46,499 nt of DNA from a virus. The notes under the pieces were generated by a model that had not been told where the DNA came from, did not search any database, and saw nothing but the letters and a program-made list of their open reading frames with translations. The DNA lies in the IMG/VR virus record IMGVR_UViG_3300037796_000068, positions 1 through 46,499 of that record; one strand, given 5' to 3'. The position numbers and the translations under genes were made by a program. Positions 25,178 through 45,899 of this stretch are shown here, in pieces (position 1 is the first letter of the stretch; each line of letters begins with the position of its first letter).

Positions 25178-25462
25178 TTAACTGTTTCCCAAGCGATGAT
25201 CGCGAATTTCCATCTCAACTTCGCTTTCGCAGCGCTGCATCAGATACTCAACGCGCTGCATCAGATACTCAACGCGCTCACCTGTTACATTCTGCGGATA
25301 CTGCACGACAGCATCGCGCAGCAGCAGCATGTAGCTGGGTTCGTGCCCTATGTAGTGGTCCCTGCTGAACAGCAAGGCGCTATCACACCCCGTCTCTTCT
25401 TCAAACTTCTGCGCCAATCGTCCAAGCGCTTCGTTCGCCTTCCTCAACATTTCTTCTGTCAT
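25178..25462 (-). CDS. Small protein with a tandem 7-residue duplication
   Basis: A 94-residue protein from ATG 25462 (MTEEMLRKANEALGRLAQKF). Near the C-terminus the heptad RVEYLMQ is duplicated by an exact 21-bp tandem repeat (25232-25252 and 25253-25273). The ribosome binding site GGAGGTACATC belongs to a leader shared with the next upstream gene. Function unknown. Confidence 0.65.
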   Translation of the reverse strand: MTEEMLRKANEALGRLAQKFEEETGCDSALLFSRDHYIGHEPSYMLLLRDAVVQYPQNVTGERVEYLMQRVEYLMQRCESEVEMEIRDHRLGNS

Positions 25463-37185: not shown

Positions 37186-37218
37186 ACCTGCGACAAACAT
37201 ATCGTGTTTGTCGCAGGT
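37186..37218. promoter_or_regulatory. Perfect 14-bp hairpin between SSB and helicase genes
   Basis: ACCTGCGACAAACA (37186-37199), loop TATCG, TGTTTGTCGCAGGT (37205-37218). No U-tract follows, so it is not a standard terminator; it lies 22 bases upstream of the helicase start. May be an RNA processing or attenuation element, an operator, or a single-strand initiation site. Confidence 0.7.
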
Positions 37219-37240
37219 ATGTATATTGTATGGAGCAATC

Positions 37241-39430
37241 ATGGAAGGTGCACGGAAAACACAACAGGTACACCTGAAAACGTTTTCGGTTACTGCAATC
37301 AGGTTTGAGCGCGATGGATTTTGCATCGGAAAAGCACGAGTAGAAGAGGGCGACCTGATAAACCATATCATCACGTTTAAAGGCACGTTCCCGAATTGCG
37401 ACCTGGGGCGCTCGTATGAGGCATACGGCGTCCTCGAAACACACCCGCGCTATGGAGATAGTTACAAACTCTCTGGTGTAGTAGAAAAGATGCCGCGTGA
37501 CCACCTTGGGGTACTTCGGTATCTCACCAATACATATGCGCTGGACTTCGAAGATGCAAACAAAATTGTCACTGAATACGGGCCGGAGTTGCGCGGCGTG
37601 CTGGATACTGCCACGCCTGAGCAGTTGATTGCAATCGGCATAGAGAACGAGACAGCAGCGCAATTTCTTGCTGAGTGGCAGCGCAGTGCAGCGGAGAAGG
37701 ATACTGAGCGGTTGTTGATAGGTGTCGCTGGCATCGGCACCAAAATGATCGCCCGCCTCAACGAATGGGCAAGAGCGCAGGGTGAAACGCTCGGGCGCAT
37801 TGCAAACAATGACCCCTATCACCTGATGAATGCACCGCGTGTGGGCTGGAAAACAGCCGATGCCATCGCTGAGGCTATGGGTGTTGCGGCAGACGACCCG
37901 CGACGGCTCGAAGCTGCGTGCAAGTATATTGCAGCGAAAGAAGAGCAGAACGGGCATACATGGACAGGCAAAGATGCTGTACTGGCAGCGGCAAGCGATA
38001 TGCTCGGATTGCCTAGCCACAAGATCATGGATGCTCTAGTTAATCAGGAGCGTGATACGAATGCGCTTCTGGTGATCGATGAGCAGCAGCGCTGCTATAC
38101 CCCTGAGATGCTACGCTGCGAGGAACAACTAGCATATGGCTTGCATCGCCTGATGACAGGCCATAGCCACATCGCCAGCAATATTAAAACACTCGACTGG
38201 CAAACCATCTTTGATAATGCTGCATTCAGACCGACTGATGAGCAGCAAGAGGCCGTGCGTTTTCTCCTGGAGAATAAGGTGAGTGTGCTTACTGGCGGGG
38301 CCGGTGTCGGCAAATCGACGGTGCAACGTCTGGTGCTTGACGCGCTGCATCGTGCAGGTGTGAGGCACATGAAACTCTGCGCCCCTACGGGTAAGGCTGC
38401 AAAACGACTGAGCGAAACGAGTGGCATGCAGGCCACAACGGTACATCGGCTGGTCAATCGCCTGATGAGTACTGATAATGTCTTTGAACCAGCAGAGCCA
38501 GATATCGTGATTGTCGATGAGGCATCGATGCTCGATACTCAGGTTGCGGAATGGCTAGTCAATGCATTGCGCGATGAATGCCATCTGATACTGGTGGGCG
38601 ACGACAATCAGTTGCCATCGGTAGGGCCAGGGCGCGTCCTGTTTGACCTGATTGGTGCCAATGTGCCTATGGCGCGGCTCACGCAAGTGCTACGACAGGC
38701 TGGTGAAAGTAAGATTATTTCAACGAGCCATAGTGTTAATAATGGCACGATGCCCGACCTGGATAACGATCCCGACAGTGACATGTTTCTTTTCGAGGTG
38801 ACGCAGCCTGAGAGGGTAGCAGAGCATATCCTGAGACTGATCACGAAGGCGATACCAGAGAAATACGGTATAGAGCCTGATGAGATCACGGTGATTGCGC
38901 CGCAATATAAGCACGCCTGCGGTATCGAGGCGTTAAACGTTGAACTTCAGGCTGTGCTCAATGAACAATCATTCGATAAGGATGAAGTGCGCTGGTTTGA
39001 CAAAATACTTCGAGAGGGTGACAAGTTGATCTGGACTGCCAATAACCTGGATCGTGGACTGGTTAACGGTGAAGAGTGCCGGGTGGAAAGTGTCTACCAG
39101 GATAACGGAAAAACCTTTGTTGATCTCGATGTGTCAACCGGCATACCGCTCGATGAATTGACAGCTACGCACGGCTATGCTGTGACCGTTCACAAGGCAC
39201 AAGGCAGCGAATACCCGTGTGCGATTGTTGTAACACATAGCGTGCATCAGTTTATGCTCACGCGGCGGTTGCTCTATACCGCTGTTACACGAGGCAAACA
39301 GTTAGGTATTATCATCGGAGAGCGTAGCGCAGTGCAAAAAGCGGTCGGTAATATTCGAGAGGATGGACGCCGAACGGCACTGACAGAGCGCCTGATAGCA
39401 TTGAGCGTTGAACCCGATAAACTTACATAG
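37241..39430 (+). CDS. RecD2-like superfamily 1 helicase
   Basis: A 729-residue helicase. The N-terminal half has an OB-like part and helix-hairpin-helix segments (GVAGIGTKMIARLNEW, APRVGWKTADAIAEAMGV) as in RecD2. Helicase motifs follow: I LTGGAGVGKSTVQ (about 350), Ia CAPTGKAAKRL, II VIVDEASMLDT (about 423), III LVGDDNQLPSVGPG, and the C-terminal VTVHKAQGSEYP and LYTAVTRGK. Start ATG 37241 has GGAG nearby; earlier in-frame ATG lies within the hairpin. Likely 5'-3' helicase for replication or recombination. Confidence 0.9.
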   Translation: MEGARKTQQVHLKTFSVTAIRFERDGFCIGKARVEEGDLINHIITFKGTFPNCDLGRSYEAYGVLETHPRYGDSYKLSGVVEKMPRDHLGVLRYLTNTYALDFEDANKIVTEYGPELRGVLDTATPEQLIAIGIENETAAQFLAEWQRSAAEKDTERLLIGVAGIGTKMIARLNEWARAQGETLGRIANNDPYHLMNAPRVGWKTADAIAEAMGVAADDPRRLEAACKYIAAKEEQNGHTWTGKDAVLAAASDMLGLPSHKIMDALVNQERDTNALLVIDEQQRCYTPEMLRCEEQLAYGLHRLMTGHSHIASNIKTLDWQTIFDNAAFRPTDEQQEAVRFLLENKVSVLTGGAGVGKSTVQRLVLDALHRAGVRHMKLCAPTGKAAKRLSETSGMQATTVHRLVNRLMSTDNVFEPAEPDIVIVDEASMLDTQVAEWLVNALRDECHLILVGDDNQLPSVGPGRVLFDLIGANVPMARLTQVLRQAGESKIISTSHSVNNGTMPDLDNDPDSDMFLFEVTQPERVAEHILRLITKAIPEKYGIEPDEITVIAPQYKHACGIEALNVELQAVLNEQSFDKDEVRWFDKILREGDKLIWTANNLDRGLVNGEECRVESVYQDNGKTFVDLDVSTGIPLDELTATHGYAVTVHKAQGSEYPCAIVVTHSVHQFMLTRRLLYTAVTRGKQLGIIIGERSAVQKAVGNIREDGRRTALTERLIALSVEPDKLT

Positions 39431-39438
39431 GAGTATTT

Positions 39439-42063
39439 ATGACTTTCCTAGACACAGCACTCGACTACGCCGCGCGCGGCTGGCATGTTTTCCCTTTGAA
39501 GGAAAACGGTAAGGCGCCCGCCATCAATGGCGGCTTCAAAAACGCCACCACCGACCCTGACCGGATACGCGCCTGGTGGGGGCGAAATCCGCGTTATAAC
39601 ATCGGCATTGCCACCGGCGCAGTGTCTGGTTTTGTGGTGCTTGATACCGACAACGAGCAAGCCGAAGAACATGTACTGCTGCAAGGTGACGTGCCCACAC
39701 TCACACAAGCCACCGCACACGGCAAGCACAGGCTCTATCAGCATCCTGGGACACACACGCCGAACCGTACCGGGCTGCACGGCGTGACCGGGCTGGATGT
39801 GCGGGGCGACGGTGGTTATATCGTTGCGGCGCCGTCTGTGCATCCCTCGGGCGCTGTGTATGCCTGGGAGAATGACAACGGCCTGGCACCGTTGCCTGAA
39901 TGGATAACCTGTAAGCCAGAGCGAAAGCGACAAGAGCAACCCGCGCCCCAAACAAAGCGTAGCACCAGCACTGGCGACCCATACGCAGAAAAAGCGCTTG
40001 ACGCTGAACTGGCGGAACTGGAGCGCTGTCAGAACGGTACGCGCAACGCTACGCTATTCAAGACGGCGCGCCGCGTGAATGAATTTGTTCTGGCGGGCAG
40101 GCTGTCCGAGAGTGTCTTTGCTGAAATCGAAACAACGGCACAGCAAAGAGGATTGCCTGAGAAGGAGATCGCCGCTACCATTGCCAGCGCCCGCAGCGGC
40201 GGCACACCAGAGTATGCTGGGTTGCCAGTGGAAAACCGGCACAATGGCAGCACTCCCGGACAAAGGCACGACACACAGACCGACGATGCCCAGGCCAACA
40301 ACGACAACCATAGTAACGGCGATCAGGGGACTGACAGACCGGTTATTGATGTGACCAATGAGGACATAGCGGAATTGGTTCCAGCGGCATGGGGCGCGCT
40401 GATCGGGAGCGAATACGGCCCACAACTGTACACGATGGGGGGTGAACTATACCGCATTGTTGACAACAAGATCGAGCCGATTGACCGCAGGAATATGCGG
40501 TATCTGCTGGGAAATGTGGCGTTATTTCCGAAAGATGTGGGCACAGGCAAGAATACAAAAATCCGCTTTGTCGCGCCGCCTGCGTCTATCGTTGACAGTA
40601 TGCGCTATGGTATGCCCGATCTGCCTGCTATAGAGCGCATTATTGCTATTCCTGTGGTTGCGCCTCAGGGTCATATTGTCAAAATGCCAGGCTACGATCA
40701 GCAGAGCGGCTATTATTATAAGCCGGAAATTGATATCGATATTCCTGGGGAATGCTCCGATCAGCACGTGAGCGAGGCGATCAGGCTGATTGATGATATG
40801 CTCGTTGATTTCCCATTCAAAACAAATGCAGACTATGCTAACGCGCTGGCGCTGCTGCTGTTGCCGTTTGTGCGTGGCGCTATTCGCGGCGCTACTCCAT
40901 TGCATTTGATTGAGGCGGCGAGAGAAGGCACGGGCAAAGGACTACTGAACGATCTCTTTCATATCATCTGGACAAACGCACCCGCGCCATTGTCCTCATT
41001 AGCTGATAATGATGAAGAGGTACGCAAAAGCCTGACGAGCGCGCTTGAGCATATGCCGCTCTCAATCACCTACGACAATGTGCGCTATATCAATTCTGCG
41101 CAACTCGAAAAGGCCATCACTGCCCAGCACTGGTCAGATCGTGTTATCGGTACTGGACGTATTGCAGATGTGCCAGTGTATACCATCTGGATTGCCACCG
41201 GGAATAATGTATCCGTGTCCGGTGACATGCCGCGCCGTGTTGTGCCTATTCGCCTGGTAGCAGACTGTGAACAGCCAGCACTGCGGAACGATTTTCGGCA
41301 CTCTGACATTGTGCAGTGGACATATGACCATCGTGTGCAATTGATCCAGGCATGTCTGACCATTATTCAGTATGGCCTATCAAGCAATGCTCGTGTGACA
41401 ACTCCCCGGCTCGGTTCATTCACGAAATACTGTACAGTTATGAGCAAAATCCTTGCATCGTGTGGTATTGACACATTCCTGGAAAATGCAATCCAGAAGA
41501 TTGAAGGTGACAACGAGCGCATCAATATGTGGCGGGCATTTTTTACGCTCTGGCATGAAGAGTTTGGCAATGCATGGGTGTCTGCTGGACAGGTCTATGA
41601 AACAATACGCGACATCGACCTACCAGTCAAGGGCGATACCGAGCGCAAGCGCCTTCAGTCTCTCGGGTACTTGCTCAACAGCCAGGTCGATGCGGTGTAT
41701 ACCATTGAAGGCGCACAATACCGCATTGAGAAGGCCAAAAACACAGCTACGAAGGGCAATATGTATCGCCTTATTCATGTCAATCTTACGGGTACTTCGG
41801 GTACTTCGGGTACTTCTATACACAGTAACGCGCGCATGTACGCGCGCGCGCATGTACAGAGTGAAAGTGAAGTGTCCTTGGAAGTACCCGAAGTACCCGA
41901 AGTACCCGTAACTCCAACGATGGTGATCTACGGGAATGACCACGATGGCTGGTATGTCTGTGAGCAAACCACAGATGGCCAGTTGGCCCATACCGATGGT
42001 ATCCCCTACGCGACTGAAAAAGATGCACGTAACGCCGCATTGAGACGGAAGCAAGGGGAGTGA
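39439..42063 (+). CDS. PrimPol (primase-polymerase)-helicase fusion
   Basis: An 874-residue protein. Residues 1-160 are a bifunctional primase/polymerase domain (FPLKENGKAPAINGGFKNAT, VLDTDN with catalytic acidic residues, LDVRGDGGYIVAAPSVHPSG). A Thr/Asp/Asn-rich linker follows. Residues about 430-680 are an ATPase-like module with Walker A EGTGKGLL (about 495), WIATGNN sensor-type motif and RRVVPIRL. The C-terminal 90 residues (GYGNDHDGWYVCEQTTDGQL type) are a small extra module, preceded by Gly-Thr-Ser and Glu-Val-Pro tripeptide repeats encoded by the inverted-repeat structure at 41786-41911. Confidence 0.85.
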   Translation: MTFLDTALDYAARGWHVFPLKENGKAPAINGGFKNATTDPDRIRAWWGRNPRYNIGIATGAVSGFVVLDTDNEQAEEHVLLQGDVPTLTQATAHGKHRLYQHPGTHTPNRTGLHGVTGLDVRGDGGYIVAAPSVHPSGAVYAWENDNGLAPLPEWITCKPERKRQEQPAPQTKRSTSTGDPYAEKALDAELAELERCQNGTRNATLFKTARRVNEFVLAGRLSESVFAEIETTAQQRGLPEKEIAATIASARSGGTPEYAGLPVENRHNGSTPGQRHDTQTDDAQANNDNHSNGDQGTDRPVIDVTNEDIAELVPAAWGALIGSEYGPQLYTMGGELYRIVDNKIEPIDRRNMRYLLGNVALFPKDVGTGKNTKIRFVAPPASIVDSMRYGMPDLPAIERIIAIPVVAPQGHIVKMPGYDQQSGYYYKPEIDIDIPGECSDQHVSEAIRLIDDMLVDFPFKTNADYANALALLLLPFVRGAIRGATPLHLIEAAREGTGKGLLNDLFHIIWTNAPAPLSSLADNDEEVRKSLTSALEHMPLSITYDNVRYINSAQLEKAITAQHWSDRVIGTGRIADVPVYTIWIATGNNVSVSGDMPRRVVPIRLVADCEQPALRNDFRHSDIVQWTYDHRVQLIQACLTIIQYGLSSNARVTTPRLGSFTKYCTVMSKILASCGIDTFLENAIQKIEGDNERINMWRAFFTLWHEEFGNAWVSAGQVYETIRDIDLPVKGDTERKRLQSLGYLLNSQVDAVYTIEGAQYRIEKAKNTATKGNMYRLIHVNLTGTSGTSGTSIHSNARMYARAHVQSESEVSLEVPEVPEVPVTPTMVIYGNDHDGWYVCEQTTDGQLAHTDGIPYATEKDARNAALRRKQGE
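41786..41911. repeat. 31-bp perfect inverted repeat with 9-bp iterons and Z-DNA-like core; candidate origin
   Basis: Left arm 41786-41816 is TTAC plus three GGGTACTTC units; right arm 41881-41911 is three GAAGTACCC units plus GTAA, an exact reverse complement. Between them, 41828-41858 is 31 bases of strict purine-pyrimidine alternation containing GCGCGCATGTAC twice. Direct 9-bp iterons within an initiator-type gene resemble phage and plasmid origins (lambda ori lies inside gene O). Confidence 0.7.
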
Positions 42064-42064
42064 G

Positions 42065-42298
42065 ATGGCACGCCGCAAACTCGAAACACAACGCCACTAC
42101 CCCGACCAGCCTGAACTGGCAGCGCGGGCCGAACAGCGCCGCGCCTTGTACGCCGAATTGGAGCGCCTGTCAACTACGCTCGGCATCGATGTACCCACGG
42201 CGTCATACTGGACACTGGACGACACAGACGCGCCGCCGTGGTACAGTCTGCCGCAAGCCGTGGAGCGGCTGCGCGAGCGAGTGGAAAGGAGTGAGTGA
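42065..42298 (+). CDS. Small hypothetical protein
   Basis: A 77-residue protein MARRKLETQRHYPDQPELAA..., with a basic N-terminus and helices (RAEQRRALYAELERLSTTLG, LPQAVERLRERVERSE). Begins 1 base after the PrimPol stop and overlaps the methyltransferase start. Unknown function. Confidence 0.6.
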   Translation: MARRKLETQRHYPDQPELAARAEQRRALYAELERLSTTLGIDVPTASYWTLDDTDAPPWYSLPQAVERLRERVERSE

Positions 42299-43443
42299 TG
42301 GGTACATTTGCCTCGCTCTTTAGCGGCGGCGGCGGCGCTGACATTGGCGCGCTACAGGCAGGCTATACGCCGCTGTGGGCGGTCGAGTATGACGCCGCCA
42401 TAGCCGAGTGGCACACGCGCAACCTGCCTGACACACAGATGATTGTAGCGCCTGTGCAGGATGTGGACTATAGCGCGCTGCCGCGTGTGGGCTGGCTACA
42501 CGCAAGCCCACCGTGTCCGAATTTCAGCGTTGCGAAAGACGATGCAGCCGAAACCGAACTCGATATCGAGATGGCACGCGGCACGGCCTGCGCAATCCAG
42601 GAGCAGCAGCCGCCTGTGTTTAGTCTGGAGCAGGTCTATGGCTATCGCGAAAGTGTGTCGTTCGCGCTGATTGTGCAGGCATTGCGTGCGCTGCGCTATG
42701 ACGTGCAATGGTGGCATCTGAACGCAGCCGACTACGGCGTGCCGCAGACGCGCCGCCGTCTCATTCTGGTGGCATGTCGTAATGGGCGCGTGGTGCGGCC
42801 TGCTGCCACGCATTGCCGGGGTGGGCGCGATGATATGTTCGGTGGGCTACTGCCGTGGATAGGCTGGTATGAAGTAATTGCTGATCTGGTAGACACACTG
42901 CCAGATAGCGAGTTCGCACCCTGGCAACTGGCACGCCTGCCTGCGGATGTGCGGAAAAGCGTGATGGTAGGAGGTGCAAACACAAGTGAACCACAAGCTG
43001 CCCCCGGCGTTGGTGTGTCAGCATTGAACGAGCCGACGCGAGCGGTTATGGCATCACATTCAGATTGTTGGCGCGCCCTACTCCTGGACGGGCAAGCCAA
43101 CACCAACGGCACAACCTGCACGAGCGTCGCTGATTGCGCGCCTGCGTTTGCGGTCAAGGCACAGACAGACGCCCGACACGCGGCGCGGGCGGTGTTGGTA
43201 GGAGACGGTGACACATACCGTCCGGTAGTTTCTGGCAACGAACCATCTCCTACACAGGGCGCGAGCGCCATTGCTCGCGCCCTGGTGCCACACCGTATAG
43301 TCAAAATGACGCCGCGTGCCCTGGCGCGTTTCCAATCGTTCCCCGACTGGTACGAGTTGCCGGAGCGCAAAGCCCTGGCGTGCAGGATTATCGGCAATGC
43401 CGTTCCGCCGCTCCTGACACAGCGGGTGATGGAGGCGCAATGA
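42298..43443 (+). CDS. C5-cytosine DNA methyltransferase
   Basis: A 381-residue m5C methyltransferase. Motif I FASLFSGGGGADIGALQAG (SAM binding), motif IV SPPCPNFS with the catalytic Cys (usual PCQ is PCP here), motif VI SLEQV (ENV-type), motif VIII QTRRRLILV, motif X GNAVPP are all present. A long variable target recognition region lies between VIII and X. ATG 42298 has AGGAG 6 bases upstream; GTG 42295 is also possible. Probably solitary protection against host restriction, since no endonuclease is adjacent. Confidence 0.9.
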   Translation: MGTFASLFSGGGGADIGALQAGYTPLWAVEYDAAIAEWHTRNLPDTQMIVAPVQDVDYSALPRVGWLHASPPCPNFSVAKDDAAETELDIEMARGTACAIQEQQPPVFSLEQVYGYRESVSFALIVQALRALRYDVQWWHLNAADYGVPQTRRRLILVACRNGRVVRPAATHCRGGRDDMFGGLLPWIGWYEVIADLVDTLPDSEFAPWQLARLPADVRKSVMVGGANTSEPQAAPGVGVSALNEPTRAVMASHSDCWRALLLDGQANTNGTTCTSVADCAPAFAVKAQTDARHAARAVLVGDGDTYRPVVSGNEPSPTQGASAIARALVPHRIVKMTPRALARFQSFPDWYELPERKALACRIIGNAVPPLLTQRVMEAQ

Positions 43444-44821: not shown

Positions 44822-45171
44822 TGTATAGCCTGCCATGCATTTCTCTGGAACGCTTCACAGCCATTCTTGAGATGGCACAATCGCCGCTCGCGCCCCACTC
44901 TAGCGAGGCATATAAAATCCTCGTGAGCTACGGCATTGATCCGGCATGGGCGCTCGCCTATTGGAACAGCCTGAACGATTATGGCAAGCGTGGCAATGCG
45001 GGCCTGACGCGCAATATTGGCCACGTCCCAATGGAGCACGGCGATGGGCATGGGTATTCCTACTATGGCGGTCTTGTTGCCTATCGCACATGGATTGACG
45101 GTGTTCTGGAGTGGGCGCAATGGTGGCGCCGTATCGAAAAAGCAGCAGAGCAGATGGGGGAAGTGGGATGA
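44821..45171 (+). CDS. Glucosaminidase/lysozyme-like protein, catalytic Glu apparently lost
   Basis: A 116-residue protein with the endo-beta-N-acetylglucosaminidase domain pattern: FTAILEMAQSPL, SYGIDPAWALAYW, then NAGLTRNIGHVP and a closing GLVAYRTWIDGVLEWAQWWR. In functional family members an H/x-E-S motif with catalytic Glu follows the LAFF segment; here the sequence is ALAYWNSLNDYG, with no Glu there. It may have become a cell-wall binding or regulatory module. Start overlaps the holin stop. Confidence 0.6.
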   Translation: MYSLPCISLERFTAILEMAQSPLAPHSSEAYKILVSYGIDPAWALAYWNSLNDYGKRGNAGLTRNIGHVPMEHGDGHGYSYYGGLVAYRTWIDGVLEWAQWWRRIEKAAEQMGEVG

Positions 45172-45899
45172 CCTATCTCATTCATCGCGTGGAAATGACG
45201 CAGCCGCACTACTACAGCGGCGGCAACTCCCGCCGTATGGTCGTGATGCACGCCACCGCCGGAAGCCATCCGAGCGATTATGAGTGGCTGCGTCAGGGCG
45301 GCAATCCTGCCGCGCCCGTCTCTACGCACTATTACATCTCTCCAGATGGGAAGATCACCCAATTCGTGCACGATACGAACCGCGCCTGGCACGCTGGCGC
45401 CTCCTCCTGGATTGTAAACGGCGTGCAAACGAGCCACCTTAACGATCATAGCATCGGGATTGAGTTGTCGCACCCCAACACATTCACACCGCACGATGCG
45501 CGCCAGTTTGACGCCGCTGTGTGGCTCGTGCGTCAACTCGTGAGCGACTACAACATCCCACAATCCCAACTCGTACGCCATAGCCAGATTGCCCCCGGCC
45601 GTAAGAGTGACCCGCAGGGCCTCGACTGGGATGCATTCGTCTCTGCTGTCTATGGGCCGCCGCCGGAGCGACGTGCACCGCATTGGTACGTCGTGCCTGA
45701 TGGTATCACGGCCTATGTGCGGTACGCGCCTGAGGTGCCAGCGCCGCCACACGCGAACATTGCACAGATCCTCATGCCCGGAAGCCGCCTACATATCGCA
45801 GAGTGGTGCGACTGGACTGATGAGGCATACGGTGGGCAGTGGGGCCGCCTGTCAGAGAGTACGTACTATGTTCATAGTAGTGGGGTGGTAGCGGAGTGA
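45168..45899 (+). CDS. Endolysin: N-acetylmuramoyl-L-alanine amidase with C-terminal SH3-like domain
   Basis: A 243-residue endolysin. Amidase_2/PGRP-type motifs: MVVMHATAG (first zinc His, about residue 27), STHYYISPDGKITQFVHDTN, HSIGIELSHPNTF and VRHSQIAPGRKSDPQGLDWD (second His and the K-x-D-P element). A C-terminal 75-residue module (HWYVVPDGITAYVRYAPEVP ... GQWGRLSESTYYVHSSGVVA) resembles an SH3-type cell-wall binding domain. ATG 45168 overlaps the previous stop (ATGA). It cuts the stem peptide from peptidoglycan at lysis. Confidence 0.88.
   Translation: MTYLIHRVEMTQPHYYSGGNSRRMVVMHATAGSHPSDYEWLRQGGNPAAPVSTHYYISPDGKITQFVHDTNRAWHAGASSWIVNGVQTSHLNDHSIGIELSHPNTFTPHDARQFDAAVWLVRQLVSDYNIPQSQLVRHSQIAPGRKSDPQGLDWDAFVSAVYGPPPERRAPHWYVVPDGITAYVRYAPEVPAPPHANIAQILMPGSRLHIAEWCDWTDEAYGGQWGRLSESTYYVHSSGVVAE

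Follow-up and report, generated by a model that had tools for sequence, protein, structure and literature searches.

The PrimPol-helicase gene of this phage contains two inverted arrays of 9-bp iterons around an alternating purine-pyrimidine core. Judging from sequence comparisons, this element very probably serves as the core of a phage origin of theta replication, one that lies inside the gene of its own initiator and is recognised by the product of that gene. We favour this reading because the element recurs in distant homologues, its iterons covary with a winged-helix domain of the encoded protein, the alternation of its core appears to be selected and the mapped origin of the plasmid pWTY27 has the same layout. 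The architecture, the recurrence, the DNA-level selection on the core and the iteron/winged-helix covariation come from the present analysis; the requirement in cis and the RepA footprint are experimental findings for the homologue pWTY27 only. A candidate origin had already been proposed here in a preliminary description made from the letters alone, and an origin is still the best explanation of the element.

The window analysed is an entire IMG/VR virus record of 46.5 kb, which may itself be a fragment. The two arms of the inverted repeat are 31 nt each, 100% complementary and separated by 64 nt, and each is composed of three iterons and a terminal TTAC or GTAA (Table 1). No other inverted repeat of the window with a spacing of up to 300 nt is as long, and in 40 dinucleotide-preserving shuffles of the whole window no inverted repeat exceeded 15 bp. 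The alternating run in the spacer is exactly 31 nt long and is likewise the longest of the window, compared with a maximum of 25 nt in the shuffles. The spacer has a G+C content of 0.53 and is alternating, not AT-rich. Both arms are in frame with the gene and encode GTSGTSGTS and EVPEVPEVP. The dimensions, the strict alternation, the Gly-Thr-Ser and Glu-Val-Pro repeats and the improbability by chance all agree with the preliminary description, and the inverted repeat is neither a product of chance nor a coding accident.

Only inner arrays are present: the outer positions around the element hold no iterons, and neither the iteron pair nor any other iteron cluster occurs elsewhere in the 46.5-kb window. 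DnaA boxes (TTATACACA) are absent from the window and from the other elements checked, with the sole exception of an intergenic copy in sister phages (see below). The cumulative GC skew, from which a turn at 41.8 kb had been anticipated, has no turning point there; it follows gene orientation and turns near 22 and 35 kb, which in a mosaic phage is weak evidence either way.

Table 1. Positions in the window of the initiator gene, the domains it encodes and the parts of the element (P0001, encoded protein)
Feature	Position	Strand	Details
PrimPol / D5-type primase-helicase gene, presumed initiator	39439..42063	+	874 aa; Pfam Prim-Pol 1.2e-42; AF2 folds; pWTY27 RepA homology
C-terminal winged-helix domain, presumed iteron-binding	41482..41778	+	P0001 about 682-780; AF2 secondary structure; partial Mantel
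Recognition helix	41641..41682	+	P0001 735-748; R736 = 41644-41646, covaries with iteron position 6
Left arm	41786..41816	+	TTAC + 3x GGGTACTTC: 41790-41798, 41799-41807, 41808-41816
Spacer (core)	41817..41880	no strand	64 nt, between arms
Alternating purine-pyrimidine tract	41828..41858	no strand	31 nt; presumed unwinding / Z-prone element
Right arm	41881..41911	-	inverted iterons 41881-41889, 41890-41898, 41899-41907, then GTAA

The identification of the gene as a PrimPol gene is borne out by the N-terminal Pfam match. Residues 300–782, modelled with AlphaFold2 (pLDDT 89.7), are predicted to form an AAA+ core followed by a C-terminal winged helix, and the nearest solved folds to the model are D5, SaPI5 PriRep1 and the C-terminal region of NrS-1 primase. 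With a D5-type AAA+ core in the model and an N-terminal primase, the protein is predicted to be a D5-family (SF3-like) primase-helicase. The element starts right behind the last strand of the predicted winged-helix domain, which confirms the domain boundary at which it had been placed.

Scans with alignments of the ATPase part, in which identity to the window is about 31%, yielded 173 loci in 84 clusters (<90% nucleotide identity), and 79 clusters were usable for counting. Within 700 nt past the helicase match, an inverted repeat is found in 63 of these 79 clusters of homologous genes, which are mostly from alphaproteobacterial prophages and, being mutually related, are not fully independent. 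The 54.5 kb so covered contain 65 inverted repeats, whereas the rest of the same loci has 7 in 583 kb, a 99-fold difference in density. The best arm period is 9 bp in 59 of the 63 clusters. The iterons themselves, situated just past the winged-helix part, vary from phage to phage (GGGGAACCT, TGTGAACCT, GGGGAGGAA, GTCGGTTTT, GGGTTTGGT and others), with 37 distinct iterons in 60. Loci from Pirellulales, Bryobacterales, Synergistales and Treponema MAGs also carry the element. In its usual, fuller form, a core of 46–70 nt is enclosed by inner arrays, with outer arrays 28 nt further out; core-only forms are present in L111 and L108 as well. Inverted iterons are absent from the loci of the large virulent phages phiCbK, RpAliso and Caulobacter phage C1 (L205, L206 and L207), which have a homologous helicase gene; this counts against the origin reading. 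Two loci (L036, 7601–7963; L117, 8808–9164) contain a perfect inverted repeat of 112–115 bp with a 133-nt spacer, situated at the locus end in both; it could represent a genuine hairpin element or result from misassembly.

The position of the element relative to the reading frame bears on whether it is selected as protein, that is, as a repetitive GTS/EVP linker peptide. The element is in frame in the window, and it lies within the ORF in 54 of the 63 clusters, as a linker would; in seven relatives, however, it is located past the stop codon, and in two it straddles it. The encoded peptides differ, the codon phase of the window iterons is unlike that of the others, and the tract changes at all three codon positions (see below), so that we consider a protein feature exceedingly improbable. 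When relatives are compared at the DNA and the protein level, it is the DNA layout that is kept, whereas the peptides differ and several elements are non-coding. This is the opposite of conserved protein repeats with scrambled codons, the outcome that the preliminary description had set against an origin.

The core shows a conspicuous pattern. The longest alternating run in the spacer has a median length of 24 nt, compared with 6 nt in control segments, and runs of at least 20 nt occur in 67% of the elements, whereas their rate in control segments is 0.0000. Eleven pairs of related elements were compared, no locus entering more than one pair; in these, the tract has accumulated 43 transitions and only 2 transversions, while the corresponding numbers are 42:32 for the rest of the spacer and 1183:1584 for the helicase gene. 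The tract also differs (p=1e-14) from 4-fold sites in a locally alternating context, which have 124 transitions and 204 transversions (ratio 0.61). Its changes are spread over codon positions 1, 2 and 3 (12, 15 and 18). Since nearly all changes in the tract are transitions and affect all codon positions, it is the alternation that is kept, and neither the base sequence nor the protein. Judged by these substitutions, purine-pyrimidine alternation itself is under selection. The selected DNA property need not be Z-DNA formation. Not every member has the alternating core, common though it is: in some, most of them non-coding, the run of alternation is short or the core is AT-rich.

Iterons and protein covary. 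With ATPase distance controlled for, the distances between iterons are correlated with those between winged helices (partial Mantel r=0.42, p=0.001), and the value for iteron against ATPase distance, given the winged helix, is -0.15. The pair with the highest mutual information is residue 736, the second residue of the recognition helix and situated at its N-terminus, and iteron position 6. With the iteron register chosen without position 6, an Arg or Lys at residue 736 goes with A at position 6 in 31 of 33 cases, and Gln, His or Asn goes with a base other than A in 15 of 18 (p=3e-8). Residues 769–772 of the wing loop covary with iteron position 3.

In a tree from which the winged helix was left out, residue 736 switches class about 12 times. 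Independent contrasts on supported branches agree in 7 of 7 cases with the codon-phase register and in a median of 6 of 7 with the automatic register. In the mutual-information analysis, some registers were assigned manually by codon phase once the pattern had been seen; the counts of Arg or Lys and of Gln, His or Asn given above were obtained without this step. The window has Arg736 and, when its iteron is read as CGGGTACTT, A at position 6; the automatic register sets the window one base off and then counts it as an exception. The covariation is indirect evidence; it fits a model in which iteron specificity would be set by the C-terminal winged helix.

Both the core and the covariation speak to a further explanation, namely that the primase transcript carries an RNA structure (terminator, attenuator or riboregulator) at its 3' end. 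Folding in RNA would be conceivable for a perfect inverted repeat, but the loops are 46–187 nt long, the arms are built of tandem 9-bp units, and Rfam gave only a chance match far below the cut-off. An RNA hairpin also leaves unexplained the strict alternation of the loop and the covariation with a DNA-recognition helix, and we regard a function in RNA as highly improbable.

The closest experimental counterpart of the putative origin is found on the Streptomyces plasmid pWTY27. Its RepA is 28% identical to the window protein over 509 aa (BLASTP E=1e-54) and colinear with it through the winged helix, and the 300-bp region 3' of repA contains the same kind of inverted arrays. In S. lividans, pWTY27 depends for its replication on repA, repB and 300 bp of non-coding sequence; replication was restored by the 300 bp but not by an inner fragment of 149 bp (PMC3583192). 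The footprint of RepA consists of two segments over the inner inverted repeat, with the loop unprotected (PMC3583192). We find that the published footprints, 405–447 and 462–509, correspond to L199 4647–4689 and 4585–4632 and thus lie over the two inner arrays.

The two systems share a homologous D5-type Rep and the location of the arrays, which in pWTY27 are inverted arrays of the GTGGGAAC type directly 3' of repA and in the window are at the 3' end of the gene. They differ in that the array is non-coding in pWTY27 and inside the ORF in the window, that the primase is a separate protein in pWTY27 and fused in the window, and that alternating runs reach only about 10–12 nt in pWTY27, compared with 31 nt in the window. 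As far as the sequences allow a comparison, the window element would therefore resemble the pWTY27 type in Rep homology and inner inverted arrays and depart from it in the outer arrays, which are present in pWTY27 and absent from the window.

Iteron inverted repeats also lie just downstream of the gene in other plasmids with D5-type Rep proteins, from Saccharopolyspora, Methylobacterium, Psychrobacter and other Streptomyces, and the origins of these plasmids should be predictable from them. No iteron inverted repeat was found downstream of the homologous Rep gene of a Cereibacter plasmid. The plasmid loci with iteron inverted repeats are L199, L200, L202, L203, L204, L208 and L209, and alternating tracts are also present in L204 and L208.

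In SaPI/PICI origins, two iteron sets flank an AT-rich melting region immediately 3' of the gene of a primase-helicase or Rep helicase whose C-terminal domain reads the iterons (PMC6092414, PMC7581432). The window element has the same arrangement of two iteron sets around a core at the end of a primase-helicase gene, and SaPI5 PriRep1 is among the nearest folds. Unlike in SaPI/PICI, the window comes from a phage rather than a satellite, its 9-bp iterons are inverted, its core is alternating instead of AT-rich, and the element lies in an ORF. The two would work alike, but the core sets the window element outside the SaPI/PICI class.

Lambdoid phages have an iteron origin within gene O, the coding sequence of their initiator. 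Lambda O is not a helicase, and its iterons are direct repeats beside an AT-rich region. The lambdoid analogy drawn in the preliminary description therefore stands as far as an iteron origin inside an initiator gene is concerned and breaks down on the kind of origin: with a PrimPol-helicase as its initiator and arrays inverted around an alternating core, the window does not have the O-type initiator, direct iterons and AT-rich region of the lambdoid ori.

The sister phage G001 (60 kb) has a PrimPol gene that is 85% identical to the window gene over aligned bases. The longest identical stretch between the two genes (68 nt, 41813–41880) spans the whole spacer, and the only 64-nt segments that are identical at 64 of 64 positions are at the spacer. 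The in-gene arms of G001 are partly decayed, with one left iteron lost and mismatches in others. Both G001 and a 7.7-kb contig, G002, contain a second, intergenic copy of the element, which has the same core and extra outer iterons and is therefore fuller. In-gene and intergenic copies are 82.5% identical over 126 bp. The intergenic copies are situated at L008 1394–1775 (G001) and L007 6024–6403 (G002), and a DnaA-box-like sequence, TTATNCACA, is found beside the core.

The intergenic copy is possibly the main origin of G001 and G002, and given the decayed arms of G001 and the fuller intergenic copy, the in-gene copy may be secondary. In general terms, the in-gene copy would then serve the same initiator as a partial, secondary or control site, and the working origin would be a fuller copy elsewhere or off the contig. 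Such a secondary site is a narrower version of the origin reading, not its opposite. Extra iteron clusters of this kind are known in P4 and in iteron plasmids. The sister phages argue for a secondary site, together with the requirement for outer arrays in pWTY27 (PMC3583192). The window, however, has a single iteron cluster in its 46.5 kb, the sister gene has an identical core spacer, and L111 and L108 show that core-only forms exist. We therefore consider a secondary role rather unlikely, though a serious alternative to a working origin in the gene.

Two homologous copies at different places in related phages, one of them in frame in coding DNA, might also suggest the in-frame insertion of a mobile palindromic element (MITE/REP or Rickettsia-palindromic-element-like). 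Against this, the position past the gene is kept in 63 of the 79 homologous groups with differing iterons, and the covariation links the iterons to the protein encoded by that very gene. Nor does the element appear to be dispersed: among viral contigs, the iteron inverted-repeat sequence is found in the sister phages only, at two sites, and no exact match to the pattern was found in genome contigs. A mobile element is thus very improbable. The exact 27-mer occurs among viral contigs in the sister phages and, in other contigs, as tandem repeats without an inverted arm. In Rhodococcus phage ChewyVIII, the repeats are similar but are not arranged in comparable inverted arrays. They are located in the gap between the divergent genes 85 and 86 (L015 3800–4030), where GGTACTTCGGGTACTTCGGGTACTTCGG is accompanied by many GTAC-centred repeats, and may represent an operator or an origin of the phage's own.

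Taken as an origin, the element suggests the following mechanism. The C-terminal winged helix of the PrimPol-helicase would bind the two inverted 9-bp iteron arrays, on which the D5-type AAA+ ring would assemble as two head-to-head complexes. The ring would melt the alternating core between the arrays and load itself, and the fused PrimPol domain would then prime. For the window copy, we infer its firing, the head-to-head loading and the melting or Z-formation of the tract.

Three features look new: that the element lies within the ORF in a large family of phages, that its core is selected for alternation, and that residues and bases are linked by a code. A search of the open-access literature, in which absence is weak evidence, found neither an in-gene origin of this type nor Z-DNA in such origins. 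It seems about evenly balanced whether there is a large family of phage and plasmid origins in which a strictly alternating (Z-prone or easily untwisted) core replaces the AT-rich element and inverted iterons, often hidden in the initiator ORF, are read by a D5-type initiator via a simple residue-to-base code. The resulting rule would predict the location of the origin in many phages, prophages and plasmids with D5-type PrimPol-helicases, as well as the pairing of protein residues with the iteron bases they read. The core, with its transition-only changes, provides evolutionary evidence for purine-pyrimidine alternation as a selected property of an origin, and the old question of the role of Z-prone DNA in replication initiation would become testable in small replicons.

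No close relative of window positions 1–25000 was found among cultured phages. The genes around the PrimPol-helicase gene encode a RecD2-like helicase (37208–39430), a C-5 cytosine methylase (42295–43443) and an N-acetylmuramoyl-L-alanine amidase (45111–45899). The window has two further repeats: a perfect 21-bp tandem repeat of 2.2 copies at 25232–25278 and, within the methylase gene, a perfect 12-bp hairpin with a 6-nt loop at 43255–43284.
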